Shown here: piece by piece, positions 1,396-57,767 of the stretch
Layout of the letters: the number at the start of each line of letters is the position of its first letter
Position numbering within the stretch: the first letter of the stretch is position 1
Origin: Paludibacteraceae bacterium
GTDB taxonomy: Bacteria; Bacteroidota; Bacteroidia; Bacteroidales; Paludibacteraceae
Assembly (NCBI GenBank): GCA_017558065.1
Contig: JAFYWK010000041.1
Coordinates: forward strand, 1-57,767
Reading direction: 5' to 3'
Length of the DNA stretch: 57,767 nt
The notes under the pieces: generated by a model
Told to the model about the DNA's origin: nothing
Databases searched by the model: none
Seen by the model: only the letters and a program-made list of their open reading frames with translations
Translations under genes and position numbers: made by a program

Positions 1396-1624
1396 TTAGT
1401 TTTGTGTCTAACTTTTGGGGTGCACTTCAAAAGCGGGTCCCTCCTCGAAAGTACAGTCGCATAATGCAGCATATGTTCCAGAACGCTCGCATTGTTTTTG
1501 AAAATACGGCTTCGCCTCATGAATATGCCACTCACTCTTTACTCCCATAAGCAAGCTTCTGTCGTGAGAGTGAGCGACATATTCAATAGATAAATCTATT
1601 ATTTTCAAAAAAATGCTCATTTTT

Positions 1625-1656
1625 CTTGCACATATGCATTTTTTGTTGTACCTTTG
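1625..1656 (+). promoter_or_regulatory. Bacteroidota-type promoter of the leader RNA
   Basis: A -33 CTTG (1625-1628), a 20-bp spacer and a -7 TACCTTTG (1649-1656). Spacing and sequence match the promoters of rplM, dxs, metK and others in this window. Confidence 0.8.
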
Positions 1657-1668
1657 CAGCGGAATCAA

Positions 1669-1728
1669 ATGAAAACGGTTAAGACACTCCACTTTGATGC
1701 GATTAACACTATGTATATTAGCGCATAA
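1669..1728 (+). CDS. Putative 19-residue leader peptide
   Basis: The ORF starts with ATG about 13 nt after the -7 element, so it is nearly leaderless, and ends in TAA. The product begins MKTVKTLHFDA. There is no run of a single amino acid that would point to a particular biosynthetic attenuator. Support is positional only: immediately after a good promoter, one arm of the long stem inside the ORF, a terminator 50 nt beyond its stop. It could be a chance ORF in a structured RNA. Confidence 0.35.
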   Translation: MKTVKTLHFDAINTMYISA

Positions 1729-1780
1729 CGCGATTTTGGCGACCCTTACTGGGTTGGAGTGTTTGTGTGTGTGTCTTAGG

Positions 1781-1809
1781 GCGACAGGTGACAACTGTCG
1801 TCTTTTTTT
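1781..1809 (+). terminator. Intrinsic terminator of the leader RNA
   Basis: A CGACAG/CTGTCG stem with a 7-nt loop is followed by TC and seven T on the plus strand. Confidence 0.75.
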
Positions 1810-1945
1810 GTTTTGATAACCTGAGGTTAATTGTGCACTTTTATTGTTTAGACGAGCATAGGTACACTATGCCGTCTGTGGGTGTTTTATATATAGGAGC
1901 GCGCACATACGCGCGAAGCGATACAATGGCGGCGCAGCCGCAAGA

Positions 1946-1978
1946 AAGTGATCTTTGACATGTTGGTATATTTGGATT
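1946..1978 (+). repeat. Diverged copy of the boxA-like repeat tail
   Basis: AAGTGATCTTTGACAT followed by TATTTGGATT matches the 3' part of the repeats at 3828-3963 and 6751-6850. The GATCTTTGACA core resembles rrn boxA antitermination sequences. No gene follows closely. Confidence 0.55.
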
Positions 1979-2259
1979 CTCGACGGAAATAGTAGGTGAA
2001 TATTTTTTTCATACAAAAATACGCTCGCGATGCGAGCTGCAAAAATAATTAAAAATATTCCAATGATTATTGTTTAAGACAATTTTTGTCAAATCATTGT
2101 CAATTTTTGTCAATTTCAGGGAGTTTAGTGGTAGTTGAGATATGGGTTCATATCTCTTGTGGCTGCTATCTTGGGCGATTGTGTAAGTAAACTTCCCCAT
2201 CGACCAATCTATCATCCACTATCGTAGCATGCTGCTACTCACTACCACTATTTTAGTAT

Positions 2260-2335
2260 GTCCTTCGGAACTTTTCACAGTCCTTCGGAACTTTTTACAG
2301 TCCTACGGAACTTTCGATGTCCTTTGGAAAGTTGC
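2260..2335. repeat. 20-bp tandem repeat, about four units
   Basis: The unit GTCCTTCGGAACTTTTCACA is repeated at 2260, 2280, 2300 and 2319, with increasing divergence. Each unit can fold into a mini-hairpin around TTCG (TCC-TTCG-GGA-like). No coding function is visible. Confidence 0.8.
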
Positions 2336-2343
2336 AAGGAAAT

Positions 2344-2370
2344 AAAAAGTGTAAAATCCAAATATATCAA
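2344..2370 (-). repeat. Inverted copy of a 27-bp motif (partner at 3934-3960)
   Basis: The reverse complement of this segment matches 3934-3960 at 26 of 27 positions (TTGAYATATTTGGATTTTAC...). The two copies bracket the YhcG nuclease gene in inverted orientation. Confidence 0.7.
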
Positions 2371-2399
2371 TGCATCAGAGAGTGTTGCGCGGCAAAGTC

Positions 2400-2448
2400 G
2401 CTGGAGGTGAGAGGTGAGAGGTGAGAGGCGAGAGGTGAGAGGCGAGAA
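2400..2448. repeat. GAGGYGAGAGG-type microsatellite
   Basis: Six or more degenerate units of GGTGAGA/GGCGAGA. It is the same motif family as the repeats at 20341-20476, 21254, 21805, 25573, 26991, 27165, 31289 and 31375. Confidence 0.8.
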
Positions 2449-2736
2449 TATTATCGCTTTGTTGCGATAGACAAGAAACAAGATAAACAACATACCCCCG
2501 AAAGGGAGAAAGAAAAACAGTTGTTTCTATTTTGGAAAAAAGTGTAAAGATAAAAATAAAACCAAACGCTATATATATTTAGTTAGAACGACGAGTGGCA
2601 AAGGAGGAAAAACTACTTGGTGCAGGCCAAACCCTGCCAAAGAAATAAGCAGGCCTCTCACCACCGCATCAGTTTAGTCCTCGGCGCTACCCCGCCGGGC
2701 AACCAAAGAAAGCGAAAAAACGAAGACAACGAAACA

Positions 2737-3780
2737 ATGATAGATAAACTGACATATATTAATTCACAAGATCTGTTTGCAGATGCGAGTGCAATTATTG
2801 AAACGGCAAAAAATATTGCATGCCGTTCAATAAATATAACTCTTGTTCAGCGAAATTGGTTGTTGGGCAAGCGTATCGCTGAGGAGCAATTAGGCGACCA
2901 AACGCGTGAAGAATTATATGGTCAAAAGATTGTTGAGAACCTTGCCAAAGAGTTGACTGAGCAATATGGTAGTGGCTTTGATTTCAGTAGTCTATACAAG
3001 TATATTCGCTTCTATCAGTGTTTCCCAAACATTTTGGACGCGGCGAGTCCAAAATCTTTTTTGCTCACTTGGACACACTACCGAATCCTACTGCAAGTGG
3101 ATGATGCTGTAGCTCGTCAATGGTATGAAAATGAGGCAGCAAAAGAGGTATGGAGCACCAAAACGCTGCAACGTAATATATCTTCGCAGTACTATTACCG
3201 AATGCTTAAGACCCCTGCTCCTGAGAAGGTGAAAGTAGAGATGCAACAGTTGACCCAACCTTTGCAAGACAAGAATGAGTTTATCAAGAATCCTGTTGTA
3301 GCTGAGTTTTTAGGTTTGTCAACCAATACTGACTATACGGAAAGCACATTGGAAAAATCCATTTTGACGAATCTGCAAAAGTTTTTGATGGAATTAGGTA
3401 AAGGATATGCTTTTGTAGCACGCCAACAACATATTCGTACAGAGAAGGAGGATTATTATATTGACTTGGTATTCTACAACTATCTTCTCAAGTGCTTTGT
3501 TCTTATTGATTTGAAAACTACTAAGGTCACTCATCAAGATGTTGGACAGATGGATATGTATGTAAGGATGTATGATGAGTTGAAGAAAGGGACTGATGAT
3601 AACCCTACAATTGGCATTGTTTTGTGTTCCGATACAGATGAAGATATTGCGAGATATTCCATTTTAAAAGGAAACGAGCAATTGTTTGCGACAAAGTACC
3701 AATTGATGTTGCCTTCTAAAGAACAACTTCGAGAAGAGATAGAGCGTCAAAAGATGATATTTAAGTTGCAGCACGAATAA
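2737..3780 (+). CDS. YhcG-family PD-(D/E)XK nuclease domain protein (DUF1016)
   Basis: A 347-residue protein with the DUF1016 N-terminal helical domain (about 1-190; includes the YGQKIVENLAKEL and LTWTHYRILL segments) and a C-terminal PD-(D/E)XK-like domain. The nuclease core shows YYIDLVFYN followed by VLIDLKT, supplying Asp and the DxK pair. The start is placed at ATG 2737, where homology begins; the frame is open upstream but that part reads like repeat-derived sequence. YhcG proteins are standalone nucleases often found next to restriction-modification or other defence genes, but no partner is present here. A repeat copy begins about 50 bp after the stop. Confidence 0.85.
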   Translation: MIDKLTYINSQDLFADASAIIETAKNIACRSINITLVQRNWLLGKRIAEEQLGDQTREELYGQKIVENLAKELTEQYGSGFDFSSLYKYIRFYQCFPNILDAASPKSFLLTWTHYRILLQVDDAVARQWYENEAAKEVWSTKTLQRNISSQYYYRMLKTPAPEKVKVEMQQLTQPLQDKNEFIKNPVVAEFLGLSTNTDYTESTLEKSILTNLQKFLMELGKGYAFVARQQHIRTEKEDYYIDLVFYNYLLKCFVLIDLKTTKVTHQDVGQMDMYVRMYDELKKGTDDNPTIGIVLCSDTDEDIARYSILKGNEQLFATKYQLMLPSKEQLREEIERQKMIFKLQHE

Positions 3781-3827
3781 CCTTGCCGAGCAACCGAAGA
3801 AAACAAAAACAAGAAAAACAAACCCCA

Positions 3828-3963
3828 CCCGAAAGGGAGATGAGGGCATGGGTCATTGGGTTGGCCGTTGCTCACAATATTGGTCAGTTGTTTGCATGCA
3901 AATGCACAGACCAGCAAAGTGATCTTTGACATATTGACATATTTGGATTTTACACTTTTTAGG
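3828..3963 (+). repeat. Cassette-boundary repeat, copy 1 (full length)
   Basis: It begins with CCCGAAAGGGAGATGAGGGC, runs through a conserved ~90-bp body and ends in GTGATCTTTGACATATT and a TATTTGGATTTTACAC tail. The body is nearly identical to 6751-6850, and the first ~60 bp match 5752-5811. The palindromic GCATGC lies in the middle. The GATCTTTGACA core is boxA-like, suggesting derivation from, or function as, an antitermination leader. It sits between the YhcG gene and the DUF4143 ATPase gene. Confidence 0.85.
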
Positions 3964-4046
3964 CGCACTTTTTGTAAAATATTACACTTTTTAGGCGGAC
4001 TTTTTGTAAAATATTACATTTTTCAGGCGCACTTTCTTGCACAATT
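3951..4046. repeat. 32-bp tandem repeat, three units
   Basis: Units at 3951-3982, 3983-4014 and 4015-4046 share TACACTTTTTAGGCG-ACTTT. The first two are almost identical. The third has diverged to contain CTTGCA, which serves as the -33 element of the following promoter, so a tandem duplication has placed repeat DNA inside the ATPase promoter. Confidence 0.85.
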
Positions 4047-4067
4047 CAAAAAAAAGCAGTATCTTTG
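4036..4067 (+). promoter_or_regulatory. Promoter of the DUF4143 ATPase gene
   Basis: A -33 CTTG (4036-4039), a 20-bp spacer and a -7 TATCTTTG (4060-4067). The start codon is 30 bp downstream. Confidence 0.8.
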
Positions 4068-4097
4068 CAGCCAAAATCGATTAATAATCATTGTGAT

Positions 4098-5387
4098 ATG
4101 AAAAGATACGCTCTTGATCAACTAAAAGCATGGAAAGACCAACCTAATCGCAAGCCCTTAATTTTGCAAGGAGCGAGGCAAGTAGGCAAGACATGGCTCA
4201 TGAAGCAGTTTGCAAAAGAATGCTTCGAACACGCGGTGTATATCAACTTCGAGAACAATCAGTTGTTAGCACATCTGTTTGAGAAGGATTTTGATATAGA
4301 TCGCATTCTACTTGAGTTGCAAATCGCCACTCGTGAAACGATTACTCCTAACACATTGTTGCTGTTTGATGAGATACAAGAAGTGAAACGTGGAGTAACT
4401 GCTCTCAAGTATTTCTATGAGCTGCGCCCTGAGCTGCCTATTATTGCTGCTGGTTCACTTTTAGGAATAGCCATGCACCGTGATGATAGTTTTCCTGTTG
4501 GTAAAGTGGACTTTATGACACTTTATCCTCTCTCGTTTTGCGAATTTGCAGAAGCGATGGGAGAAGAGTTGCTAATCAAACAAGTAAAACAACAGAACTG
4601 GAGTCTTATTACTTCACACGCATCTCAATTGGAAGATTTGCTCCGCAAATACTACTATATCGGTGGAATGCCCGAGGTGGTAAATGCTTTTGTTCAGAAT
4701 ACCGATTTTGTACAAGTGCGAACCATTCAGCAAGCTATTCTTGACAGTTACGATCGCGATTTCTCGAAGCATGCGCCTATCAACGAAGTACCACGCATCC
4801 GTATGGTGTGGCGAAGTGTTATAGGACAATTAGCTAAAGAGAACAAGAAGTTTATCTATGGCTTCTTGAAGAAAGGCGCACGCGCCAAAGAATTTGAATT
4901 GGCACTATCTTGGCTACAAGATGCAGGGTTGGTGTATAAAGTGCATCGCACTAAAACTGCTAAACTGCCATTGTCTGCATACGAAGATTTCTCTGCATTC
5001 AAACTCTACCTGTTGGATGTTGGTTTGTTAGGCGCCTTGTCTGGTGTGTCGGAACAAGTACTTTTGCAGAAAAACGAACTGATGTCTGAGTTTAAAGGCG
5101 CTTTGACTGAGCAATATGTGATGCAGCAATTGCGGTGCAACCGCCAAAACATCATTTATTATTGGTCCCAAGAGACTTCGCAAGGCGAGATTGACTTTCT
5201 CGTGCAACAGGGCGACTGCATTTTACCTGTTGAGGTAAAGGCAGAAGACAATCTGCAGGCCAAGAGTTTGAAGTGGTTCGTTGAGAACAACAAAGGTCTG
5301 CATGGTGTGCGTTTCTCCATGTCGGGATATAGGGAACAAGATTGGATAACCAACTATCCTCTATACACAGTCGAGGCAGTTATATAG
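4098..5387 (+). CDS. AAA ATPase with DUF4143 domain
   Basis: A 429-residue protein. The N-terminal AAA_14-type ATPase has Walker A GARQVGKT (about residues 24-31) and Walker B LLLFDEIQ (about 97-104). A winged-helix/DUF4143 region follows, ending in a nuclease-like core (GEIDFLV then VEVKA, about 370-390). The start at ATG 4098 fits the family N-terminus (MKRYALDQLKAWK) and the promoter 30 bp upstream. These ATPases are common single genes in Bacteroidota genomes, and their function is mostly unknown. A good terminator follows, so it is probably monocistronic. Confidence 0.9.
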   Translation: MKRYALDQLKAWKDQPNRKPLILQGARQVGKTWLMKQFAKECFEHAVYINFENNQLLAHLFEKDFDIDRILLELQIATRETITPNTLLLFDEIQEVKRGVTALKYFYELRPELPIIAAGSLLGIAMHRDDSFPVGKVDFMTLYPLSFCEFAEAMGEELLIKQVKQQNWSLITSHASQLEDLLRKYYYIGGMPEVVNAFVQNTDFVQVRTIQQAILDSYDRDFSKHAPINEVPRIRMVWRSVIGQLAKENKKFIYGFLKKGARAKEFELALSWLQDAGLVYKVHRTKTAKLPLSAYEDFSAFKLYLLDVGLLGALSGVSEQVLLQKNELMSEFKGALTEQYVMQQLRCNRQNIIYYWSQETSQGEIDFLVQQGDCILPVEVKAEDNLQAKSLKWFVENNKGLHGVRFSMSGYREQDWITNYPLYTVEAVI

Positions 5388-5429
5388 ATCGCCTGCGACC
5401 AAATCTCGAACATTCTGTTCAATCCAAAT

Positions 5430-5462
5430 GAAATAGGGCTATATGGCTCTATTTCGTTTTTT
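5430..5462 (+). terminator. Intrinsic terminator after the DUF4143 ATPase
   Basis: A GAAATAG/CTATTTC stem (5430-5436 with 5449-5455), extended by inner GC pairs, then GTTTTTT. Confidence 0.85.
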
Positions 5463-5840
5463 CGCTACCAAAATTATAGAATATTATAGAATATTGTCCA
5501 AAATTTTATAACGGCGAATGGAACGGATTGAACCAATTATGCAAGAATTAGTAAAATTAGTTGAATTAGCCGTTTTGAACAACAATTTTGATTAATTTTG
5601 TATAATAAACTGCAATTTTGGGAAAGAGTCCAAATTATGTCAACATTTCAAAGATAATAACAGAAACTACCTATCTGTTTCGCGACTATTAGGCGACCAC
5701 GATAGGACATCTATAGGACTGATATAGGACTTATATAAGAAAGACAAAACAACAACATACCCCCGAAAGGGAGATGAGGGCATGGGTCATTGGGTTGGCC
5801 GTTGCTCACAAAAGAATGAAATAGAGCAATTAGTAACATA
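5463..5840. other. Intergenic stretch ahead of the DUF3800 gene
   Basis: AT-rich sequence with short internal repeats (TATAGAATAT twice near 5475-5500) and a degenerate ATAGGACTNATATAGGAC minisatellite (about 5690-5735). That minisatellite resembles the one flanking the four-helix-bundle gene at 17.4-18.3 kb. Repeat copy 2 follows. No coding frame is credible, and no clear promoter of the standard form was found for the DUF3800 gene. Confidence 0.6.
5752..5811 (+). repeat. Cassette-boundary repeat, copy 2 (5' portion only)
   Basis: It shares AACATACCCCCGAAAGGGAG with 2488-2508, and the following GGGCATGGGTCATTGGG body with copies 1 and 3. It stops at GTTGCTCACA, before the part that carries the GCATGC and boxA-like motif. 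The DUF3800 start codon is 30 bp further on. Confidence 0.85.
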
Positions 5841-6608
5841 ATGCAAAAATATTATTTATACATAGATGAATGTGGTGATCACAACTTGGCGAACTTTGAT
5901 GAGCAGTTTCCGATATTCACTTTGTGTGGAATTATTGTGCGCGATGATAAACGCATGTGGTTGGAGAATGAGATACATACTTTAAAACAAGATTTTTGGG
6001 GTAATCAACATACTATTCTGCATTCACGAGACATTCGGAAATGTCAACGAGGATTTGAGATTTTGTTTGATTTAGATGTAAAAAAGCATTTTTATGAGCG
6101 CATTAATGATATATTAGGAACAGAGGGGGTTTATGTGATTGTAGCATGTGCTATCTTAAAGGAACCATACATCCGTAATTACGGAAAGATGAATGATGTA
6201 TATGCTCAATCTTTATCATTTGTATTAGAGCGAGCAGTATTTTATTTGGATAGCGTAAAAGAGGATGAAGAAGTAGAATTGCATACCGTAGTAGAAATGC
6301 GAGGAAAAAAAGAAGATGAAAAACTACGTACATTCTATATGCAGCTCTTGGATAAAGGAACATATTGGGTTGGTTCAGAACGACTAAAGCAATTTGCAAA
6401 GTCGTTTACACTACTGCCCAAGAAAGCTAATATTGTAGGATTACAGGTGGCTGATTTAGTAGCATATCCAATCACACGACACATATTAGACCCTAATGAG
6501 CCCAATATGGCATACGACATAATAAGGAATAACATTTATACAGAAAACTTGAAACAAATAGGCATAAAAATTATACCGCACGAACAAAAAAAGGACTGCC
6601 AGAACTGA
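5841..6608 (+). CDS. DUF3800 domain-containing protein
   Basis: A 255-residue protein. The DUF3800 hallmarks are an N-terminal YIDECGD motif with two acidic residues (about 6-12), a central ILHSRDIR segment and a C-terminal LQVADLVAYPI motif. The family has an RNase H-like fold and is found in mobile and defence-rich regions; no activity can be assigned from sequence. It stands alone. Its last codons are antisense to the terminator hairpin of the small RNA at 6586-6660, so convergent transcription is expected. Confidence 0.88.
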   Translation: MQKYYLYIDECGDHNLANFDEQFPIFTLCGIIVRDDKRMWLENEIHTLKQDFWGNQHTILHSRDIRKCQRGFEILFDLDVKKHFYERINDILGTEGVYVIVACAILKEPYIRNYGKMNDVYAQSLSFVLERAVFYLDSVKEDEEVELHTVVEMRGKKEDEKLRTFYMQLLDKGTYWVGSERLKQFAKSFTLLPKKANIVGLQVADLVAYPITRHILDPNEPNMAYDIIRNNIYTENLKQIGIKIIPHEQKKDCQN

Positions 6609-6616
6609 CAATCCTT
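6586..6616 (-). terminator. Intrinsic terminator of the 75-nt RNA
   Basis: AAGGACTG (6591-6598) pairs with CAATCCTT (6609-6616), allowing one wobble, with further inner pairs. On the minus strand the stem is followed by seven T. Confidence 0.8.
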
Positions 6617-6660
6617 CCAACCGGGGACACCCCAGTCCATATTCCATAATTGGAATGTTC
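6586..6660 (-). ncRNA. Candidate ~75-nt three-hairpin small RNA
   Basis: A strong minus-strand promoter (6665-6696) drives a short transcript that folds into three adjacent hairpins. ATTCCA/TGGAAT has a 4-nt loop; ACTGGGG/CCCCGGT has a 3-nt loop; a terminator stem of at least 11 bp (AAGGATTGTCA with TGGCAGTCCTT) is followed by seven T on the minus strand. The 3' end overlaps the last ~20 bp of the DUF3800 gene in antisense. There is no ORF of useful length. No known RNA family was recognised. It could be a stand-alone sRNA or an antisense regulator of the neighbouring cassette. Confidence 0.6.
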
Positions 6661-6664
6661 GCTG

Positions 6665-6696
6665 CAAAGGTACTACAAAAAAACGAACTGACCAAA
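6665..6696 (-). promoter_or_regulatory. Strong Bacteroidota promoter of the 75-nt RNA
   Basis: Reading the minus strand: a -33 TTTG in ATTTGGTCAGTT, a 20-bp spacer and a -7 TACCTTTG. The -33 context is almost the same as those of rplM and metK, so high expression is plausible. Confidence 0.8.
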
Positions 6697-6750
6697 TATT
6701 TTGGCAAAAAAGTGCAAATTTTATATAAAAAATGATATAATAACAAAACC

Positions 6751-6850
6751 GAGGGCATGGGTCATTGGGTTGACCGTTGCTCACAATATTGGTCAGTTGT
6801 TTGCATGCAAATGCACAGACCAGCAAAGTGATCTTTGACATATTGATATG
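6751..6850 (+). repeat. Cassette-boundary repeat, copy 3
   Basis: It matches copy 1 over about 90 bp with a single clear substitution (TTGACC for TTGGCC), including GCATGC and the boxA-like GATCTTTGACATATTG. Downstream it is joined to the truncated 3' end of a surface-protein gene on the minus strand, so this copy marks a recombination junction. Confidence 0.85.
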
Positions 6851-8239
6851 ATGAAATTTACAAAAAAGTAAGTTTTTAACGCTGTGCCGATAGGCTGGTT
6901 GTGGTCTCAAAGAAAGGACCGTTTCTGTGGTACATGAGGTGATAAAATTAGAATAAGATGGAGAACTGCCTATTTCAACATCAAAATATTCTGTACTACC
7001 AGCACTCACATTACTTAAAGCATAACCTCCAAATTGATTATAGGAAGAACCTGCACGGAAAACTATACCTCGTGCTGTAGATGCTACAGAAGCAATTCTC
7101 CAACTGCCATTTGTTCCTTCGCTTATATCCCAGTTATACGCAGTGGTACTTGTTCCTAAATTAGTAGAAGAAGAGTATGTAATATATGAGGTTCCTGTTT
7201 TTATGGTGAAACCTGTACTAGTTTTTGCAAAAGTATATTCTGTTGCGTCGGACTCCTCTGTCGTAGATGATATTTTAGAGCCAGTTCCTTTGGCGTAAAA
7301 TTTCGTACCTTTTACAATTGCGTAGATTTTAAAATTGCCACCAGTAGTACCATCAAAACTTGTCCCACCACTATTCTCTGCAAAAACTGCAAAAACTGCA
7401 AAATCAGCACTTGGCATAACATCACTGTTTGTTATCAGTGTAGGTGCAGTATTAGTTTTCTCTGTTATCTCAGTTGTTGTCCAACCTACAAAAGTAGTAC
7501 TTGTCGCATCACAAGAGGTAGGCGTTCCTAATTCACCTAAAGCATCCAAAAGATTGGCACCTTCTTCGACTTGCAGAGCTCCGTTATTTTCTCCTGCTTG
7601 ATATGAAAGAGTGTACTCTTGTTTAGGTGTAGCAGATTCATAAGTAATAGTTATTTTTGTCCAACGAGTTTGAGCAGAGGGTACGCACGTTACCGATTGA
7701 TCTCCATTTGTAGGAGTAACCGTAATGGTTGAACTTGATGCAGTTGCAATAGCATTCGTCCATGTCGCATTTTTTCCAGCTGTTGCATAGTCATTACTGG
7801 TAGTAGTTATCATAATTTGTGATATAGTAATACCACTTTCTGGAGTAATTGTTACTTTTGAACCACTATACAATCGCCAATGTTGTTCAGTCGCACTACG
7901 CCAACTGCTTGCGTTATTTTTTTCAAATTTCACAGTAAAACACCCACTTGTAGATGTTCCCGTTATAGGCGAAGTTGAACCAGATGTATTCGTACAACTA
8001 TAGGAATCTTCCGCCCCCCACATAGTCCCTATACCTATCGTAAGGAGCATAGTTAATACCATAGCAAGGCGTTTGCCTAATGCGCTTGCTTGATTGAAAA
8101 GTAAATTTTGTTTCATATCAATATGATTTTAATTATTATCGTATATATTGTAAGTCGCTATGCGACAATGGTATAAATGCTATTAAACTTTGTAAGTGTA
8201 AACAAATATAAAACTTGTAAACTATTAAACATTAAAGAT

Positions 8240-9478
8240 ATGATGAACAATCTACAATCTTCTGCCCAAGTGGCAAAAAATCTTTTAAATGTATTGCAAG
8301 GGTATACTAAGGGTATACGATTCCTGCTTGTTATGTTCCTGACCCTAACGGTAAGTACTGCGTGGGGTGCGGATACATGGGAACTTGTTACTGATTACAC
8401 AAATTTAAGTACGAGCGATGTCTATGTTATAGCAGGCAATATTAAGGGAGGTAGCACTTGGTATGCATTAAAGAACAATCAAGTTACAACTGCCTCTAAT
8501 TTGCCTTGTGGTAGTACATTAACAATCAGTAACCAAAAGATTACGAGTAGTATCACAGAAAATGATACGTGGGTGGTAGAAGCCACTTCTACTGCTGGAG
8601 TATATTATATTAAATCAACAAAAGGGGCATATTATTTGCAAAATGCTGGTGCTACAGGTAGTAAAATCACTTCCAAGAGTTCTACAGACAAACAAAATCA
8701 GTGGCGTATACACTATGAACAGACCTCAGGCTCATATACGGTAACTGGACTATATAACGTTGGCGTTTCTCGTGAACTAGGTTGTTATAATGCAACTACG
8801 TGGCGTTGTTACACAACTTCAAATTATGCTAATCTAAGTAATGCAGAAGTCTGTTTGTATCGTAAAGTTGCATCCTGCGATAACCAAGTAACCATTACCA
8901 ATGCATCTGCTACAGGAGGTTCATTCAAAGTGCATCAAGGAACTGCGTCTGGAACAGAAATTAGTTCTGGCGGTAAAATTGACAACTGCGATGCTAATGC
9001 GGTAGTAGTTGTGGTTCCTACCGCAAAGGCTAATTATACTTGCACAAGTGTAACAGCGACAAATAGCACCAGCATATCAGGACCTGACGGAAATGGTAAT
9101 TATACTATCACTTATACCCAAGGTAGCAATATATCATCCGAAATTTCTGTCACCTTTACCGAGAATCAAAAACACACCGTCACTTGGATTGTAAACGGAA
9201 ATAAATATACCGAAGGGAATCCAACTGCTTCTGCTTATGAAGGAGCAAAATGGAGTTCATTAACTTTACCAACAGCCCCAAATCCTAATGATTATTGTGG
9301 ACAAGTATTTGCGGGGTGGACAACAACAAATATAGGAAGTACGGGATTAGATAAAGATAATGATGCAACTGCTATTCAAAAGCTCAACTTGATGACGAGT
9401 GAAAACAAATCGTCTAAGACAAACACTATCACAGAGCCAACAACCTTCTACGCAGTCTTTGCGGATTATGCAGATTAA
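8240..9478 (+). CDS. Secreted repeat protein, shorter paralogue of the giant surface protein
   Basis: A 412-residue protein from ATG 8240 (MMNNLQSS). The signal peptide is FLLVMFLTLTVSTAWGA. A WELVTDYTNLSTSDVYVIAG module matches the RWVEVTDNNTLKDGDEVVI module of the next gene. An InlB-like segment ends in FYAVFADYAD. It stops there, with no C-terminal sorting domain, 34 bp before the next signal peptide. It is either a naturally short secreted protein or a remnant of a longer paralogue. An in-frame start at 8177 exists but would place extra residues before the signal peptide. Confidence 0.75.
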   Translation: MMNNLQSSAQVAKNLLNVLQGYTKGIRFLLVMFLTLTVSTAWGADTWELVTDYTNLSTSDVYVIAGNIKGGSTWYALKNNQVTTASNLPCGSTLTISNQKITSSITENDTWVVEATSTAGVYYIKSTKGAYYLQNAGATGSKITSKSSTDKQNQWRIHYEQTSGSYTVTGLYNVGVSRELGCYNATTWRCYTTSNYANLSNAEVCLYRKVASCDNQVTITNASATGGSFKVHQGTASGTEISSGGKIDNCDANAVVVVVPTAKANYTCTSVTATNSTSISGPDGNGNYTITYTQGSNISSEISVTFTENQKHTVTWIVNGNKYTEGNPTASAYEGAKWSSLTLPTAPNPNDYCGQVFAGWTTTNIGSTGLDKDNDATAIQKLNLMTSENKSSKTNTITEPTTFYAVFADYAD

Positions 9479-9512
9479 TAAGCGAAATGAATATTAGTAT
9501 TAACGATTAAAA

Positions 9513-12500
9513 ATGAGAATGATTATGAAAACTTTATATACTACATATAACAATTTCGCAAAGCGTTTAGTAATGTCACTAATGGTCTTGATGACCGTTG
9601 GTGTAGGAACTGTGTTGGGAGCACAAGAAACTTTAAGTGGCTCATTTACATCATCCAATACCACTTCTGGAGGTTTTACTGCGAGTGGGGGTTCCGCTGG
9701 TAGTTATTATAAACTTCAAACAGGATACATCATTAGTGACGCATCCTATTCAGTAGATGCTACAAAATCTATATCTGTTTCAATGAAAGTTGGAACATAC
9801 GGAACTTATAGTGCCAATAAGCAGAGTGTAGATTTTTATGCGGTAGATAAAAATGGTAATATAATCTCTAACAAAGTTACCGCAAGTTTTTCAAATGCCA
9901 ACAGTAGCGGAACAAACTTTTCTGGAACTATTACATTGAATAGTGGCAATAGTGGGAATGATGTGCGCTTTAAATTTGCTTCAAATAGTAATGCTACATC
10001 GAGTGTCTGCGCTCGTTTCTATAATTTCACAATTACATACGAGTCTGCTCCTTCTACTTTCACCGTTACCTACGATGACAATGGTGCAACAAGTGGTACT
10101 GTTCCTACAGATGACAATGAATATGAAAGAGGAACAGCGGTAACCGTACTTGATAACACAGGTAATTTAGTGAAAACGGGTTATAGATTTGACGGATGGC
10201 AAATCGATAAAGCGGGTATAGTTTATAATGCTGGCGATAAATTCAATATTTCTGCGAACACTACTCTTTACGCCCAATGGACAGCCCGAACTCTCACTAA
10301 CTACCGTACCTCATGTAGCACAGAAACGGTCGTTTCTTTGGACCCCAATGGGGGTACTTTTGCGACAGATCCTGAAGGATGGACCAAAGACGGAAATAAT
10401 TATGTCATTACACATACAGGAACGGAAATTACGTTGCCAATTAATATTAGTCAGGAAGGAAAAATCTTTGAAGGTTGGTACGATGACAGCGATAATGAAT
10501 GGAAATCTATTCCTGCAGATCTGACAGAATCTATTACTTTGACAGCAAAATGGTCTGACAAACAAGATCCTAAAATCGCTTGGAATCCAACAACTTGCAC
10601 AGTTACCATTGATGCTATTGAAGAACTTCCTGGGTTCCAAAATCCAAACAATCTAACTCCTATTACTTTTGAAAGTTCCAATTCTGAAGTCGCCTCTGTT
10701 GATAATAATGGTGTTATCACATTAGGTACTACAGCGACAAAAGCAACTGTGATTATTACCGCTACTTTCGATGGTGATGTCACCTATGCTGCAAAAAATG
10801 TAACTTGTACCCTCACTGTCAACCCATCCAACTGCCGCTGGGTGGAAGTGACTGATAATAATACACTTAAAGACGGCGATGAGGTGGTGATTACAATGAC
10901 AAAGTATGGATCTGATGGTCTTCCATATACATATGCATTACCAAATGCAAAACGTGTAACATCAAATCCTGCCCCAAGTGCAATAGATGTAACTACTAAT
11001 ATAGTCGGTAATGAAATGACCTTCGTTGCAAACAATATTGCAAACAATATAAAATGGACTATAGAAAGAGTTGACGATTATTATGTTTTCTACACTATTA
11101 GCAACGAAGGTCGTTATAATCTTTATTGTAATAGCAGTGATAATGGTGTATGTGTAGCAGGGTCTGGAAATGCCCTTACTAATCATAAATTTAGCATTGA
11201 AGGAAATTATCTAAAGAGCCAAGCAGAATTGCGCTATTTGGCTATATCATTCAATACAACTCCTTATAGTTGGCGTTCAATATTGGATAACACAAATTCT
11301 ACCTATTCTGGTCAAACCCTCAAATTCTACAAGCGCGAGTGTTTGGATGCTACGAATTATTGGGTAACATGGGATGCTAATGGTGGTCAATGGACAGACG
11401 GTTCAACCAAGAAATTAAAATCATACGAAGTTGGTGCTACTATCACCAAACCAGAAAACCCATCTCGTGAGGGCTATCGTTTTGACGGATGGACTCCAGC
11501 ACCAACCACCATGCCAGCAGAGAATATCACTTTCACAGCGAAATGGACGGAGGTTTATACAATTACATGGTACGAAAATGGTGTTCCATCTTATACCTAT
11601 GTTCCTTCTGACAATGCTGTTGTAACTTGGGAAGATAATATTGCAGATTGCGGCAAGAAGAAATTCTATGGTTGGACTGCAGACGACACCTTTGTTTCTG
11701 ATCCTACCACACCACCAACTTTAATTTCAAAAGGTACTACCATTGCTGGCGATGTTACCTATTATGCGGTTTATGCAGATGCCGTCAAACCTGCAAACCC
11801 TGGATATACAAAGGTAACAACTATTTCCGAAGGTACATACTTGATTGCAACTGGCGAAACAAGTAGCAATAAAGCATATACTGGTAAATATTCAGATAAA
11901 ACTTACGGAGGCACCTGTGATGTGACTGTAAATAATCAAGTTATCAGTACTAAACCTACGAGTGCAGTTGAAGTTGAAGTAACTTTGGGCACTGGTGCTA
12001 ATTCAGGTAAGTTTGCTATTTGTGATGGTACTTACTATTTAAGTGCGCCAAATGATAATGCTTTAACATTCAATGGTAATATTGTTTACGATTGGAAATT
12101 AACAGCAGATGGATATATAAATAGTACTGGACAAAGTACTAGATATATACAACTCAATAGTAGCGCAAATCCTAATCGTTTTGCATGCTATACAGGTACT
12201 CAAAAATATGCTTACCTCTACAAGAAACAAACAACAACATACAAGAACTTTGCCGTTTCTTGTGCTACTTATGATATCTTAGTCACAACCTCTACTGGCG
12301 GAACGGTAACTACAACTCCTGCAGATGAAGCTGGTGCGGGACAAGAAATTACAATCAATGTAACTCCTGATGATTGTAAGTATCTCACAGGGTTGAAGTA
12401 TAACTACGATAGTGATCATAGTGATTATAGTATCGATATCTATTCTACTCCATATAAATTCACTATGCCTGCTGCTAATGTAACAGTAACTGCTACATTT

Positions 12501-15500
12501 GCAGACAAGACAGCAACCGACATAGAGATACTAACATCTGCTCATCGCATGTTGATGCAAGGTTCCGCATTTGTCGGCGAGCAAGTTCGTATTACATACA
12601 ATAATGGAGATACAGAAACCTTAAATTGGAATGATAGTCGTTTGACTTTCTCTGGTCATAATACCGCCACATTGGGTAGTCAAACAGTAACTGTTACCTA
12701 TAATGATTGTGGCACTCAAAGTGCTTCATACAACATCGAGGTAATTGATGGTTTAGGCATTACCTTCTGGGATGGAGATTACACCGAGACTATTAAATAT
12801 GAGCCAGGCGACCTCGTAGATGTAGATAACAAAATCGGACAATCTATATGTGATGGTTGGAAGTTCGTGGGTTGGAGCGAAACCAAAGTAGCCAATGAAT
12901 CCAACGGATTTAGCCCTGTACACAACTTCAACGCAACTGAACCAAGAACACTATACGCGGTGTATGTGCAAACTTCTATTGATTGGATTTCTGCATATAA
13001 TATTGAAGAATTGCATCCAGGTGCAAAGTATGTTATTGTTGCACATTATAGTGACTCAAAAGAGTATGCTTTAACAAACACCAATAATACAAGCAATTCC
13101 TATCTTGATGGCGCAAACTTAATGACTGATTGCGAGAAGATAAGAGAAGGCGATGCATATCCATACAAAGATCGTTATAAACTCAAAGTAACTCCAGACG
13201 AAAATTGGAAATGGCAGTTGGAGCAAGTGGGTACTGGTTGGTACATGCGCAATATTGAAGCTAATAAGTACTTGAAGATAAATAGTGATAAGACCATCTC
13301 ATTAACAACAGCAACAGAGGATTTATTTACCTTAAGCAATGGAGATAAAGATAGCGAGATAACAGCTCTGTCAAGTTCTAATAATTATTTGTCGTGGTAT
13401 AACTCCTCTAAATACTGGAATGGTCATACCAGCGGAAAACAATATTATTTGACCAACGAAACTAACTTTACCTCAACTCCTCCATGCTCTCCTCTATCTG
13501 CTACTTTCTATGGTAATGGTGGTATAGTAACTGATGGAATAAAGAGTGGGGATTACCTCCCTATCAAGGAGCCTACACGAGATGCAGGTATCATTACTCC
13601 TACTGCCTCTTTTGCAGATTGTAACGGCAAGAGTTGGACATTCGTTGGTTGGTCACGCGAAGAAATTGATGTTACCCGTGTACCTGTACTTACTACCGAC
13701 CTATTGCACGATGGCGGTGGAAATAAGCACTACTACATCCAAGAGGATGGTGAAGAATTTTGGGCGGTATTTACTAATATAGGTAATCCAGAGACTAAGT
13801 ATGGTACCATTACATTTACTCAAAACGATTGGGGACCAAGTTATACAGATGGAACCAAGACAAAAACAGTTAATAGTATTGATTATACATTCGATTATAA
13901 AAGATTAAGTAGTGCCAGTACGCAAGGTATTCAATTTGAAGAAAGTACAGGAACATTCGCTAATGCCACATCTTTAGGTAAAATCAATTCAATTAGTTTT
14001 GTAAACTTCAATCGTGGTGATATTAATGACCTGAAAGTCTATGTAGGAAAGACTGCCAATAATGTTACAACCGTTTTGACAGCTGCTGACTTACAAATCG
14101 TAGGAAATACTTGTACATACTATCCAAGCGCAGATTACGCATACTTTAAGGTTGTTAGTGTAGGTGATGTATGCTATGTTGAAGAAATTATAATTAATTA
14201 TGGTCAAGGCACACAAGTTTGGGCTACTACGCCTGATTGTTCAATAATCAGAATATTAACTGATGAAGAAGTTTATGTAACTGCGACAAAAGATCGCGGT
14301 GTTATGGCAACTGCTTCATTGACAATTAAGACATGGCAACTTGATCCAAATGCAGATGTGATCATCACATCAACAAGCAACGATGTGTATTTCTCTGCAA
14401 GCCGTGAAGCTAACTTTGCAAAAGCGGTTGCAAATCAACCAAAGAATTCTTTAACATTAAATGCAGATGAAGAGGGTAATTTACAGCAAGACATCTATGT
14501 ACACTACAAACCAAGTGTAGAGGGCGATGGTACACCTGCAAGTGTGGTGGTATCTGCTAATCTTGCAACACCTAACCCATCTATTACAGATGATCAAACA
14601 ATCTTTGTACGCAACTTACCAGATCAATTTGTTATTGCTACTAAGGTTGGCTCCCACTGGTATGCTTTGCCTGCGGATATGAGCAGCGCAACCAACCCAG
14701 AGGGCGTACTAATCGAAGTAGATGAAGCAACCATGACCGCTACCGCAACTAATACTACATCATATACCTTGTTCCCTGTGAAGACAACTAACGGAGAATA
14801 TGACCGCTATGCAACTAATACTGCACATTATGAGGGCAATGCTTACGGTGACCGAGTACGCTTTGTTGCTGCGTTAGATAATAAGGGCTTGTGGGCAAAT
14901 AATAATGAGAATGGTAATACAATTCGTAACTATGCAGCGATTAGCAGTATTTCGGACGGTGGAACCACATCCAATACTAACCCTTCATACGAGTGGAAAA
15001 TTACTACCACCGTTGTAGATGGCAATTGGCAATATACTTTGCAAACAGACCAAGAGAAGAATCAAAAATACTTGCGTTATTGGACTGGTGCAACTGGTTC
15101 TCCTAAGTGGGGTACATACGCTGCGGGCAACGACCAACTCTACTTCTTGCCTGTGACTACATATACTGAAATGGATATTGAAGTAATGGAATGGGGAACT
15201 AATAGTATGGTATGGCGTATAGAACAGAATGCTCCTAGCAAAGTAAATATTAAATACAATTCTATTACACGCGGAGAATTACCAGTTAATCAAATTGAAA
15301 ATAGTGATCTGTACATTGTAGAATACAACCTACAAGGAAATGATTGCGGAATAATGACAATTGATGATGGTTTAGGAGCTCGCAAGATTATTCGCACACC
15401 AATATTGGTTAGCGGAGAAAAGAAAGGTTCTGATTACACAACTTCTCCTGGACGTGATATTTGTGCAGACTGCGACATTGTTATCCTCAATGGTGGAAAA

Positions 15501-17003
15501 CTTACTGCCGACGAGCTTAAATCTACAGGTTCACATGTTGATTTTGCAAACATTTATGTATATCCAGGCGGTAAGTTAGTTCTCGATGGCAAGAGCCTTG
15601 GTGTAAAACAACAAGTATATCTGCGCGGTGGATATTCTTGGCTCAACCAAACTACTTATGCGTTGCCAGAGGTTTATTTGAATGGTGATATAAACTTCAA
15701 TGGTAGTGGCAATATGATTTATGACTACTATATCCGAAACCACAAGTACTACCAATTTGCTCTGCCATACGATGTTCAACTAGCTAAAGTTACTGATGAG
15801 TCAGGCGCAGACAACTTCCCTGTTTGGGTGAAACATTACAACGGTGCCCTCCGTGCTGCCGATGCGAATGCAACCAGCTGGGAATGGTATCCAAGTGAGA
15901 GCGGCGATGCCAATGCTTATTTCTATGCAGGCGAAGGATATATCATTGCAGCCAAACCTCGTCAAGTAGGTAATACAGCTAACCGTCCACTTTCAATTAT
16001 CCGTTTCCCATTGGGTAATACAGCGCTAAGTGGAGCAGAGAGCGATAAGAGCATCGCTACGAAGGCTCATGGTATTGATGGCTACTATGCGGGAACCGTC
16101 ACAGCCAACAATGTGGGTTGGAACTTTATAGCTAACCCATTCCTCTCTACATGGAAAGGCGACATCGGTCATAAACAACTGACCCAACACCTTGAGGATG
16201 GCAAATGGGACGGCACATACGACTGGGTAGATGCAAACACGAAATACATCACTATTATGTCGCCAGAAGATGGCACTGATTATGCTCAATATGTTGCATC
16301 TACTACAGAACTCCAACCTTTCTTCCCATTCTATTTGCAAGAAACTGCTAATGGAGGCTCTGGTGAAATCAATTTTGTAGCAGCCAATCGCGTGAAGAAA
16401 GCTCCTGCTAAGATTTTGGCAGAAGTAATGCGTGAGGCATTTGTTCAAATTGAGATTGTTGATGGTGACAATATAGACCAAACTGGTTTGTATGTGAGTG
16501 ATAAGTATTCCGACGATATCGATTTTGACGATTTGGAGAAGATGTTTGGTACTGCTACAGATAAAGCGAAAGCATGGTTCGTACACGATAACAAACGTAT
16601 GGCTTTTGAAGCTATAACCGAAAATCGCGCAACAGGTTCTGTACCTTTGGGTTATCGTGCACCACAAGAAGGTTCATACACATTCACTATCAATGAAGGA
16701 ATCAGTAAGATGGATTGCGTTGAAAACATCTATCTGACCGACTATGAGAATAGCGTCATGGACTACGACTTACTACTCAGTGATTATAATTTTGAAAGCC
16801 AGAGTGTGTTGTACAACGATACGCGTTTTACAGTCAGAATCATTATGAAGGAGAAAGGTGAAGGTACTGTTACTGGAGTTGATTATATTGGTGTACAAGA
16901 TGAACTGCCAATCAAGTTCATCTATCAAGATAAGATATTCATTTTGCATAATGAAACAATCTATGATGCAACAGGTAAAAAAGTAACAACTATCAATAAA
17001 TAA
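9513..17003 (+). CDS. Giant (2,496-aa) secreted InlB-repeat surface protein
   Basis: The signal peptide is KRLVMSLMVLMTVGVGTVLGA (about 17-37). Multiple Listeria/Bacteroides InlB B-repeats follow (for example about 183-258, 268-348, 615-690; motifs YRFDGW and TLYAQW). There is a Big2-like Ig domain (about 352-436), several alternating DGDEVVI-type and YAVYAD-type modules, and a large C-terminal region. The end (DELPIKFIYQDKIFILHNE then YDATGKKV) resembles a T9SS type A sorting domain. The likely role is adhesion or surface display. ATG 9525 is an alternative start. The gene is followed closely by the small membrane protein at 17043, probably in one transcript. Confidence 0.85.
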   Translation: MRMIMKTLYTTYNNFAKRLVMSLMVLMTVGVGTVLGAQETLSGSFTSSNTTSGGFTASGGSAGSYYKLQTGYIISDASYSVDATKSISVSMKVGTYGTYSANKQSVDFYAVDKNGNIISNKVTASFSNANSSGTNFSGTITLNSGNSGNDVRFKFASNSNATSSVCARFYNFTITYESAPSTFTVTYDDNGATSGTVPTDDNEYERGTAVTVLDNTGNLVKTGYRFDGWQIDKAGIVYNAGDKFNISANTTLYAQWTARTLTNYRTSCSTETVVSLDPNGGTFATDPEGWTKDGNNYVITHTGTEITLPINISQEGKIFEGWYDDSDNEWKSIPADLTESITLTAKWSDKQDPKIAWNPTTCTVTIDAIEELPGFQNPNNLTPITFESSNSEVASVDNNGVITLGTTATKATVIITATFDGDVTYAAKNVTCTLTVNPSNCRWVEVTDNNTLKDGDEVVITMTKYGSDGLPYTYALPNAKRVTSNPAPSAIDVTTNIVGNEMTFVANNIANNIKWTIERVDDYYVFYTISNEGRYNLYCNSSDNGVCVAGSGNALTNHKFSIEGNYLKSQAELRYLAISFNTTPYSWRSILDNTNSTYSGQTLKFYKRECLDATNYWVTWDANGGQWTDGSTKKLKSYEVGATITKPENPSREGYRFDGWTPAPTTMPAENITFTAKWTEVYTITWYENGVPSYTYVPSDNAVVTWEDNIADCGKKKFYGWTADDTFVSDPTTPPTLISKGTTIAGDVTYYAVYADAVKPANPGYTKVTTISEGTYLIATGETSSNKAYTGKYSDKTYGGTCDVTVNNQVISTKPTSAVEVEVTLGTGANSGKFAICDGTYYLSAPNDNALTFNGNIVYDWKLTADGYINSTGQSTRYIQLNSSANPNRFACYTGTQKYAYLYKKQTTTYKNFAVSCATYDILVTTSTGGTVTTTPADEAGAGQEITINVTPDDCKYLTGLKYNYDSDHSDYSIDIYSTPYKFTMPAANVTVTATFADKTATDIEILTSAHRMLMQGSAFVGEQVRITYNNGDTETLNWNDSRLTFSGHNTATLGSQTVTVTYNDCGTQSASYNIEVIDGLGITFWDGDYTETIKYEPGDLVDVDNKIGQSICDGWKFVGWSETKVANESNGFSPVHNFNATEPRTLYAVYVQTSIDWISAYNIEELHPGAKYVIVAHYSDSKEYALTNTNNTSNSYLDGANLMTDCEKIREGDAYPYKDRYKLKVTPDENWKWQLEQVGTGWYMRNIEANKYLKINSDKTISLTTATEDLFTLSNGDKDSEITALSSSNNYLSWYNSSKYWNGHTSGKQYYLTNETNFTSTPPCSPLSATFYGNGGIVTDGIKSGDYLPIKEPTRDAGIITPTASFADCNGKSWTFVGWSREEIDVTRVPVLTTDLLHDGGGNKHYYIQEDGEEFWAVFTNIGNPETKYGTITFTQNDWGPSYTDGTKTKTVNSIDYTFDYKRLSSASTQGIQFEESTGTFANATSLGKINSISFVNFNRGDINDLKVYVGKTANNVTTVLTAADLQIVGNTCTYYPSADYAYFKVVSVGDVCYVEEIIINYGQGTQVWATTPDCSIIRILTDEEVYVTATKDRGVMATASLTIKTWQLDPNADVIITSTSNDVYFSASREANFAKAVANQPKNSLTLNADEEGNLQQDIYVHYKPSVEGDGTPASVVVSANLATPNPSITDDQTIFVRNLPDQFVIATKVGSHWYALPADMSSATNPEGVLIEVDEATMTATATNTTSYTLFPVKTTNGEYDRYATNTAHYEGNAYGDRVRFVAALDNKGLWANNNENGNTIRNYAAISSISDGGTTSNTNPSYEWKITTTVVDGNWQYTLQTDQEKNQKYLRYWTGATGSPKWGTYAAGNDQLYFLPVTTYTEMDIEVMEWGTNSMVWRIEQNAPSKVNIKYNSITRGELPVNQIENSDLYIVEYNLQGNDCGIMTIDDGLGARKIIRTPILVSGEKKGSDYTTSPGRDICADCDIVILNGGKLTADELKSTGSHVDFANIYVYPGGKLVLDGKSLGVKQQVYLRGGYSWLNQTTYALPEVYLNGDINFNGSGNMIYDYYIRNHKYYQFALPYDVQLAKVTDESGADNFPVWVKHYNGALRAADANATSWEWYPSESGDANAYFYAGEGYIIAAKPRQVGNTANRPLSIIRFPLGNTALSGAESDKSIATKAHGIDGYYAGTVTANNVGWNFIANPFLSTWKGDIGHKQLTQHLEDGKWDGTYDWVDANTKYITIMSPEDGTDYAQYVASTTELQPFFPFYLQETANGGSGEINFVAANRVKKAPAKILAEVMREAFVQIEIVDGDNIDQTGLYVSDKYSDDIDFDDLEKMFGTATDKAKAWFVHDNKRMAFEAITENRATGSVPLGYRAPQEGSYTFTINEGISKMDCVENIYLTDYENSVMDYDLLLSDYNFESQSVLYNDTRFTVRIIMKEKGEGTVTGVDYIGVQDELPIKFIYQDKIFILHNETIYDATGKKVTTINK

Positions 17004-51443: not shown

Positions 51444-51482
51444 AAAAAAATAAGCCACAAGCGACTGTTTTGGTCTTGTGGC
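51444..51482 (-). terminator. Attenuator terminator of the metK riboswitch
   Basis: GCCACAAG (51454-51461 on the plus strand) pairs with CTTGTGGC (51475-51482). On the minus strand the stem is followed by TTATTTTTTT, 14 bp before the metK ATG. A competing CTTGT/ACAAG hairpin overlaps the 5' arm and the riboswitch 3' end. Confidence 0.82.
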
Positions 51483-51486
51483 ACAA

Positions 51487-51536
51487 GGTTTTAGCATTAT
51501 TTTAGAGAGGTTGCAAGCAGTCCAAATCTATCCTCT
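51487..51536 (-). promoter_or_regulatory. SAM-II riboswitch upstream of metK
   Basis: The minus-strand RNA reads AGAGG (P1 5' strand), GATTTGG, GCTTGCAA, CCTCT (P1 3' strand), an A-rich L3 and GCTAAAACC. It keeps the SAM-II consensus blocks GATTT, TTGCA and GCTAAA in order. The loop GG and terminal CC can form the P2 pseudoknot, a compensatory swap of the CC:GG seen in the crystallised SAM-II RNA. The distance to the promoter (51552-51583) is ~16 nt, as expected for a compact leader aptamer. Confidence 0.85.
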
Positions 51537-51551
51537 TTTCAAAATACGTTG

Positions 51552-57663: not shown

Positions 57664-57767
57664 AAATGGCGGCTACCTACTCTCCCACAAACGCAGTACC
57701 ATCGGCGTTGCTGAGCTTAACGACCCTGTTCGGAATGGGAAGGGGTGGGACCTCAGCGCTATAACCA
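57664..57767 (-). rRNA. rrf: 5S ribosomal RNA, 3' part (5' end outside the window)
   Basis: The minus strand reads TAGCGCTGAGGTCCCACCCC, then CCATTCCGAACAGGG, TTAAGCTCAGCAACGCCGAT and a TGGGAGAGTAGGTAGCCGCC end. These are the conserved 5S helices II, III and V with the loop A and C signatures. About 104 nt are visible; roughly 8 nt at the 5' end are missing. The rest of the rRNA operon should lie beyond the window. Confidence 0.96.

Follow-up and report, generated by a model that had tools for sequence, protein, structure and literature searches.

The window analysed here, a stretch of 57,767 nucleotides of Paludibacteraceae DNA, raises the question of what delimits three unrelated genes (a YhcG nuclease, a DUF4143 ATPase and a DUF3800 gene) that lie in a row, each beside copies or pieces of the same repeat. 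The original prediction was that they are single-gene cassettes bounded by a 90-bp, boxA-bearing repeat, gained by repeat-mediated recombination and possibly provided with an antitermination leader.

The Repeat and Its Modules

The repeat itself is real: copies 1 (3842–3940) and 3 (6751–6849) are 98% identical across 99 bp, while copy 2 (5762–5811) reproduces the first part of copy 1 in 50/50 bases and is devoid of boxA. Repeat fragments were confirmed at 1945–1978 (plus strand, 91%), at 2343–2371 (minus strand, 97%) and at 2476–2509, the last consisting of the CCCGAAAGGG part only (82%), and the motifs CCCGAAAGGG, GCATGC and GATCTTTGACATATT are all found in the repeat, as had been claimed. 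The identities given to the three genes (DUF1016/YhcG, AAA_14-DUF4143 and DUF3800) are likewise upheld by Pfam.

The 136-bp repeat recurs more often than chance would allow, with seven matches in its own genome, five of them inside the window, and at least one match in 17 of the 101 genomes of the genus, its own being counted; its long form of ~99 bp is confined, within these 101 genomes, to the two copies in the window and one copy, 90% identical, in G066. The copies are in fact mosaics of modules that also occur separately, such as the hairpin GGGYAYGGGTCATTGGGTTGRCC and the boxA with its tail. A pattern search for the hairpin gave 16 matches in 13/101 genomes (control: 0) and placed it on the plus strand of the window at 3844..3866 (copy 1, GGGCATGGGTCATTGGGTTGGCC), at 5778..5800 (copy 2, 5′ of DUF3800) and at 6753..6775 (copy 3). 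Comparison of positions 1400–7000 with Rfam yielded sub-threshold matches only and no family above its cut-off, and a close-similarity search of plasmid and phage collections with positions 1400–6950 matched nothing.

Ribosomal Identity of the boxA Core

The core GWTCTTTGAMATRTTG is not peculiar to this locus, since it has 102 exact matches distributed over 49 of the 101 genomes of the genus, as opposed to a single match for the reversed control. No 16S was found in the genome from which the window derives, so that the rRNA boxA used as a reference was drawn from the family. The boxA core lies 116–202 nt 5′ of 23S in 4/4 complete operons of the family, and the 14-nt core is identical in seven of the eight spacer copies found, these rRNA operons belonging to the family and not to the same genus. 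This identity equates the core of the repeat with the family's rRNA boxA, and the predicted resemblance to an rrn boxA is thereby borne out for the 23S leader. Concerning the 16S leader, a family survey found a 16S match in 18 of 150 genomes, giving 30 loci, several of which are fragments or second copies; TCTTTGA occurs in 4 of the 23 leaders printed, a count that says little because the minus-strand loci were read on the wrong side. A hairpin on the outer side is clearly better than in shuffled sequences for only 14 of 49 boxA copies, and an ORF of at least 200 aa follows boxA in 28/63 cases, compared to 22/63 random positions.

Paired Ends Delimit the Units

The boundary of a cassette is an inverted pair of boxA ends and not the 90-bp repeat, which cannot retain the role originally assigned to it. 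Among the genes of the window, DUF4143 alone is enclosed by such a paired unit (3921–5655). Its end E1 (3921..3949, plus strand; nhmmer 42.4 bits) consists of the boxA GATCTTTGACATATTG, whose core family members carry unchanged as the boxA in the 23S leader, and of the tail ACATATTTGGATT; 26 bp inside E1 begins a tandem array of 2.7 units of 32 bp (3950..4035, plus strand; Tandem Repeats Finder), also present inside E1 in L034, L035, L039, L059 and L060. There follow, on the plus strand, a promoter-like TATCTTTG located by motif scan between boxA and the DUF4143 start (4060..4067), which resembles the known promoter consensus, the 429-aa AAA_14-DUF4143 ATPase identified by Pfam (4098..5387) and the hairpin AAATAGGGCTATATGGCTCTATTT (5431..5462), recognized by eye, which has a T run like that of a terminator and occurs in a stretch common to L034, L039 and L043. 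The unit is closed by the inverted end E2, TATCTTTGAAATGTTGACATAATTTGGA (5627..5655, minus strand; nhmmer 18.5 bits), which is the cognate inverted arm at 0/300 shuffles.

The neighbouring genes are differently placed. The YhcG (DUF1016) gene (2737..3780, plus strand; Pfam) lies outside paired units, between the unit ends at 2381 (minus) and 3916 (plus), the former belonging to a gene-less 437-bp unit (1945..2381) with inward boxA-type ends at 1945 (plus) and 2381 (minus) that score 32.9 and 19.5 bits with nhmmer. The DUF3800 gene (5841..6608, plus strand; Pfam), also outside paired units, lies between the ends at 5655 (minus) and 6825 (plus), the latter being the solo boxA end of copy 3 (6825..6859, plus strand; 26.0 bits), for which nhmmer found no partner end. 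The notion of single-gene cassettes thus holds insofar as single-gene units recur at different loci, and is not supported for YhcG and DUF3800, which sit between units. A 94%-identical counterpart of 6752–7313 exists in G066 (L036), where the ORF across the repeat, truncated by the contig end, is by BLASTP not a DUF3800 gene; in 20 relative loci BLASTP recovered no homologue of DUF3800 and, for YhcG, only remote ones (25–28% identity).

The same layout, boxA and tail 5′ of the gene and an inverted partner 3′ of the stop codon, is found across cassettes. The inverted partner is present after the stop at ≤4/300 shuffles in 21 of 24 cassettes and at ≤10/300 in 22, L047b (10/300) being borderline and L160a (44/300) and L175 (61/300) failing, and the arm scores above a same-length gene-body control in 24/24; several of these 24 cases are homologous copies and hence not independent. 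A first run comprised 27 cases, six of which had ≤45 nt downstream and were unjudgeable, the later run of 24 including some new ones. Each end comprises the rRNA boxA as its outer half and, as its inner half, a word that varies by cassette family and matches within the cassette. Since a cassette's own arm ranked first among the 24 right-hand regions in only four cassettes, this word is family-specific and not specific to the single cassette.

In one family with two types of ends, 14 of 16 elements have one E1 and one E2, three of the E2 ends being weak (10–13 bits with nhmmer); E1 is on the 5′ side of the cargo in ten of these 14 and E2 in four. The orientation of the cargo with respect to the ends varies: with HipBA aligned one way, E1 is upstream in L060 and downstream and inverted in L037. 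Furthermore, boxA is followed by a promoter-like TT-N17-25-TANNTTTG before the start codon is reached, in 26/27 cases and in 6% of shuffles. Since this motif separates boxA from the start codon, it is uncertain that boxA is transcribed in the cassettes, and it becomes unlikely that it simply provides the cargo mRNA with an antitermination leader.

Recurrence and Possible Mobility

The same units are found at different loci in other genomes, with similarity breaking off no more than a few bases from the unit ends, and upstream of a giant gene with a shared 5′ region G066 has a different cassette from that of the genome studied here. The cargo, one gene per cassette, is swapped among AAA_14-DUF4143 or ATPase_2-type ATPases, HipBA, and PIN-type and similar genes. 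Among the cargo ORFs covered by Pfam scanning, none is a transposase or recombinase, the loci read contained no insertion sequence that shares these ends and could be the parent, and inspection by eye of the sequence next to the printed ends revealed no target-site duplication. The recX gene, present in 88/101 genomes, led to no clean empty site in the 30 loci read, its neighbour gene being variable.

Two candidates were discarded. DUF4143 was rejected as the carrier of the ends, boxA being on both sides of the gene in just 3/30 homologue loci, which indicates that the ends do not track the gene family; a small serine resolvase was rejected as the mobiliser, adjoining boxA in 3/30 loci, from which no link emerged.

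Nature and Possible Function of the Cassettes

The reading that we favour, with a probability of about 0.5, is that the units are non-autonomous passenger cassettes, akin to mobile insertion cassettes, that contain boxA within their ends. Each consists of one gene, usually with its own promoter-like motif, inside an inverted pair of ends, and the mobilising enzyme would be supplied in trans. An inward boxA may load Nus factors onto transcripts coming from outside, and the transcripts so loaded could traverse the cassette without Rho-dependent termination, so that this read-through would render the insertion less polar. The inward-facing pairs, the abrupt limits of similarity, the one-of-each end types and the variable orientation of the cargo favour this reading; the failure to see a target duplication, a clean empty site or a transposase, the loss of the boxA end in some copies, the weak E2 ends and the counts for ORFs after boxA (28/63 against 22/63) and for outer hairpins (14 of 49) count against it. 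More tentatively, the cassettes may be a genus-wide mobile class with ends that mimic the flanks of 23S (boxA plus a closing inverted arm), one and the same sequence serving as an end and as an inward antitermination signal that lets transcription cross either way.

A less probable explanation is that the paired sequences act in RNA and not as ends of DNA. The cassette would copy the 23S plan of boxA, 5′ stem strand, cargo and 3′ strand, and antitermination of a read-through transcript at boxA would be followed by its closure, and perhaps its cleavage, at the stem. Indeed, boxA and the bases after it are complementary to the stretch directly 3′ of 23S in 4/4 complete operons (0, 0, 0 and 1 of 200 shuffles), the cassettes follow the same plan with an arm sequence that differs among families, and the inverted arm of the GGATTACCG family belongs to a terminator-like hairpin. 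However, 23S rRNA is normally flanked by a processing stem, so that such a stem is ordinary for rRNA; moreover, 15 arm pairs display no G–U bias (12 in the cargo sense, 10 antisense and 17 transversions in 350 positions), the E1/E2 ends are asymmetric whatever the orientation of the cargo, and the promoter-like motif sits 3′ of boxA.

Similarly doubtful is the originally proposed route, in which there would be no transposition and the cassettes would be shuffled by homologous recombination between repeated modules. Repeats are numerous, outer hairpin modules are common to several loci, the boxA end is lost, or the left end replaced, in some copies of the same cargo (L164 and L169), and in L041 parts of two cassettes are joined. 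On the other hand, recombination in longer shared flanks should leave ragged limits, whereas in several independent copies TCTTTGA and its inverted partner mark, to within a few bases, the points where similarity halts; the asymmetry of E1 and E2 also speaks against recombination. It is improbable that boxA merely regulates some of the ATPase and toxin-antitoxin-like genes 3′ of it and that terminators gave rise to the inverted partner as a by-product: P-loop ATPase genes follow boxA in sense in 21/63 instances (ORF list, by eye) and boxA outside rRNA is known in gammaproteobacteria (PMC5725501), but four elements have E2 instead of E1 on the 5′ side of the cargo, a gene-less unit exists, and boxA flanks DUF4143 homologues on both sides in so few loci.

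The evidence as a whole suggests that the boxA-ended cassettes of this uncultured gut genus, which carry mostly ATPases and toxin-antitoxin-like genes, are a mobile element with a borrowed ribosomal transcription signal. If true, a mobile element would have a ribosomal antitermination signal built into its ends, the presence of cassettes in or beside transcribed regions that they do not silence would be explained, and the sequence would offer a handle for finding, in uncultured Bacteroidales, cargo that resembles defence or toxin-antitoxin genes. In the literature surveyed by title and start of abstract, most subscription journals being outside its scope, neither a description of boxA-ended cassettes nor a match to the term "passenger-associated transposable elements" was encountered.

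Comparison with Known Systems

Integron gene cassettes are arrays of single genes associated with a repeated, hairpin-rich site; the present units share with them the occurrence of single genes in arrays beside such a site and differ in that the site is here inverted at both ends of the unit. The 1945–2381 unit is reminiscent of MITEs, being short (437 bp), gene-less and provided with terminal inverted repeats, although neither a parent transposase nor a target duplication was identified here. The consensus of Rfam RF02956 (DUF2693 RNA) starts with GAUCUUUGACAUA, a word shared with these sequences, yet the match scores 23 bits where the cut-off is 81.3, and the remainder of the family is unmatched.

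With the rRNA boxA and the 23S flanks the cassettes have in common an identical core and the arrangement of a boxA followed by an arm complementary to a stretch past the enclosed unit; unlike them, they enclose a gene that codes for protein and has a promoter-like motif of its own, and in one cassette family boxA points inward at both ends. A close parallel is offered by mobile insertion cassettes such as mic-qnrD and the Bacillus cereus MIC231, in which, according to PMC3913671, a passenger gene lies between inverted repeats with a transposase gene neither inside nor near. Here too inverted repeats bracket a passenger gene and the scanned cargo ORFs include no transposase; the differences are that neither a target duplication (by eye) nor a parent insertion sequence (in the loci read) was found here, and that the present ends contain boxA, are of two types and enclose many unrelated families of cargo.

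Identity and occurrence of the repeat

The repeat marks passenger cassettes with boxA-bearing ends, i.e., single genes (the cargo) lying between an inverted pair of ends, each consisting of a boxA core and a tail, or inner word. The repeats at 3828–3963, 5752–5811 and 6751–6850, and the YhcG, DUF4143 and DUF3800 genes that the original prediction had set beside them, are present in the window, with corrections.

A script applied to 30 rRNA-match loci (several being fragments or second copies), all from family members and none from the same genus, located the core in the spacer 3′ of 16S at eight distinct loci, as exact TCTTTGACATATTG in seven and with a single change in the remaining one. In the four complete operons (L223–L226) it lies 116, 130, 140 and 202 nt 5′ of the 23S start and 3′ of the spacer tRNAs, which is the expected place for a 23S boxA. 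The consensus of the Rfam DUF2693 RNA opens with the same word. The outer side of boxA is often adjoined by a hairpin, with a mean stem score of 12.2 vs 9.4 in shuffles and reaching the top of its own shuffles in only 14 of 49 boxA copies.

The genome to which the window belongs comprises 2.4 Mb in 83 contigs, the window being one entire contig (G000:C51). An exact search of public species genomes for a 24-nt end word returned 10 stretches, every one in a MAG titled Bacteroidales or Paludibacteraceae and, where the title gives a source, from cattle, buffalo or deer gut. Among 101 genomes of the genus, GWTCTTTGAMATRTTG has 102 exact matches in 49 genomes (reversed control, 1) and the GGATTACCG type, with at most one mismatch, 85 matches in 37 (control, 0). 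The latter type is absent from 198 genomes of the order, a sample including three family members, and from the window's own genome, which is one of these three; for the type tested, the cassettes have so far been seen in this genus only. Window positions 1400–6950 gave no near match in plasmid and phage collections.

Paired ends

A profile of core plus tail yields inward-facing pairs, of which one in the window (3916 and 5655) surrounds the DUF4143 gene and another (1945 and 2381) encloses no gene. The pairs of relatives surround several kinds of AAA_14-DUF4143 gene, as well as ATPase_2-type ATPases and HipBA; at L045, BRO and YhcG genes adjoin single ends. Cassettes with only one boxA also have a partner, an inverted match to boxA plus tail within about 350 nt past the stop. 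For 21 of 24 cassettes, no more than 4 of 300 shuffles did as well as this match. The 24 include several copies of one cassette and are thus not independent. L047b was borderline (10/300), L160a (44/300) and L175 (61/300) failed, and the score exceeded that of a same-length gene-body control in all 24. When the 24 right-hand regions were ranked, a cassette's own arm came top only four times, since arms from its family, and those keeping a full boxA, match equally well or better. Given this matching within families, the inner word is a family marker (ACATATTTGGATT, GGATTACCG, AAATGACTGAT, TGATATTTTGATAAAAA and others).

In the ACATATTTGGATT and AAATGACTGAT families the two ends are of different types, E1 being TCTTTGACRTATTG (in one, TCTTTGATGTATTG) and E2 TCTTTGAAATGTTG or a near variant; in the window's DUF4143 unit they lie at 3921–3949 (+) and 5627–5655 (−), respectively. 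One E1 and one E2 occur in 14 of 16 paired elements, three E2 ends scoring only 10–13 bits; the other two are L065, with two E1, and the window's gene-less unit, which resisted typing. A 32-bp tandem array begins 26–28 bp inside E1 in the window, L034, L035, L039, L059 and L060. The 5′ side of the cargo faces E1 in 10 of 14 elements and E2 in four. The HipBA cargoes of L060 and L037 can be aligned without inversion (82%, 1691 bp), whereas their E1 ends match in inverted orientation (88%, 106 bp), one lying upstream of the cargo and the other downstream.

An alternative of low probability is that the arms act as an RNA stem on the plan of the 23S rRNA unit. Each of the four complete rRNA operons shows complementarity between its boxA region and the stretch past 23S (0, 0, 0 and 1 of 200 shuffles), and cassettes and 23S unit therefore share a common plan. 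On the other hand, 350 aligned positions from 15 cassette arm pairs contain 12 G-U pairs when read in the cargo sense and 10 when read in the antisense, along with 17 transversions, which does not favor an RNA stem.

Recurrence at other loci

The units recur elsewhere. The window, G054 and G025 share a DUF4143 unit at 88–93% identity, the similarity stopping on the left a few bases outside TCTTTGA and, between G054 and G025, extending on the right to the E2 end; the window's unit has about 150–160 additional bases ahead of E2. Between L059 and the window, similarity runs as far as TCAAAGA on one side; at the opposite end it stops 8 bases outside E2. Two more units, shared by L047 and contig C7 of the window's own genome (L161), are similar from a AGTGATCTTTGA-type boxA as far as the inverted word or the terminator belonging to it. 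In G066 and in the window's genome, different cassettes lie upstream of giant genes whose 5′ regions are 87% identical. The surroundings of the repeat at 6751–6850 are 94% identical in the window and G066 over 563 bp; beyond it the G066 ORF, where that contig ends, is not DUF3800. Against movement count L164 and L169, which have a replaced left end and no longer carry boxA; moreover, inspection by eye showed no target duplication at the unit ends, and the loci read included no clean empty site.

Transcription and the role of boxA

The motif TT-N17–25-TANNTTTG lies between boxA and the start codon in 26 of 27 cassettes (6% of shuffles), so that the cargo's own transcript probably begins downstream of boxA. 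The latter would then enter RNA only with transcription coming from outside the cassette. BoxA protects CRISPR arrays. In the two-ended family, transcription would encounter an inward-facing boxA whichever side it came from, and this boxA may suppress Rho on the entering transcripts; the known roles of boxA (PMC5725501) are the background to this proposal. By a count made by eye, 21 of 63 boxA instances precede a P-loop ATPase in sense; an ORF of at least 200 aa follows in 28 of 63, as compared with 22 of 63 random positions. At L048 3640–4060 and L151 1440–1720, short tandem repeats, e.g., TTGGAAAAACGGACAAAATA × 3, lie in what is presumably the 5′ untranslated region of an ATPase gene. At L053 5824 (G020:C8) and L170 5864 (G029:C17) boxA lies inside same-strand gene runs, some of the genes being glycosyltransferase-like by eye; a plain antitermination role is plausible there.

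Neighboring features

An IS3-type insertion sequence with HTH and rve integrase ORFs occupies 1–1430 at the contig start; bases 1–141 are identical to the start of contig C25 (L040) of the same genome, which makes an assembly break at this repeat probable. A SAM-II riboswitch lies at 51481–51541 (−; 56.3 bits, cut-off 44), and a 5S rRNA truncated by the contig end at 57664–57767 (−). Cassettes often adjoin genes for very large, secreted-looking proteins with a common signal-peptide-like start (window 6536–17003, flanks of L034–L046). At L162 (G000:C83, 4858–7238) a reverse transcriptase gene (RVT_1) is followed by boxA and then by a Kinase-PolyVal gene, an order found again at L146 (G058). In 3 of 30 loci (L136/L167, L137/L168, L144) boxA has an ORF for a small serine recombinase nearby, Pfam Resolvase being confirmed in L167 only.

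Comparison with mobile insertion cassettes

The loci read contained no parent element for the boxA-ended cassettes. Their overall plan resembles that of the mobile insertion cassettes (MICs; PMC3913671), in which a passenger gene lies between inverted repeats with no transposase gene, and the boxA-ended cassettes are candidate members of this class.
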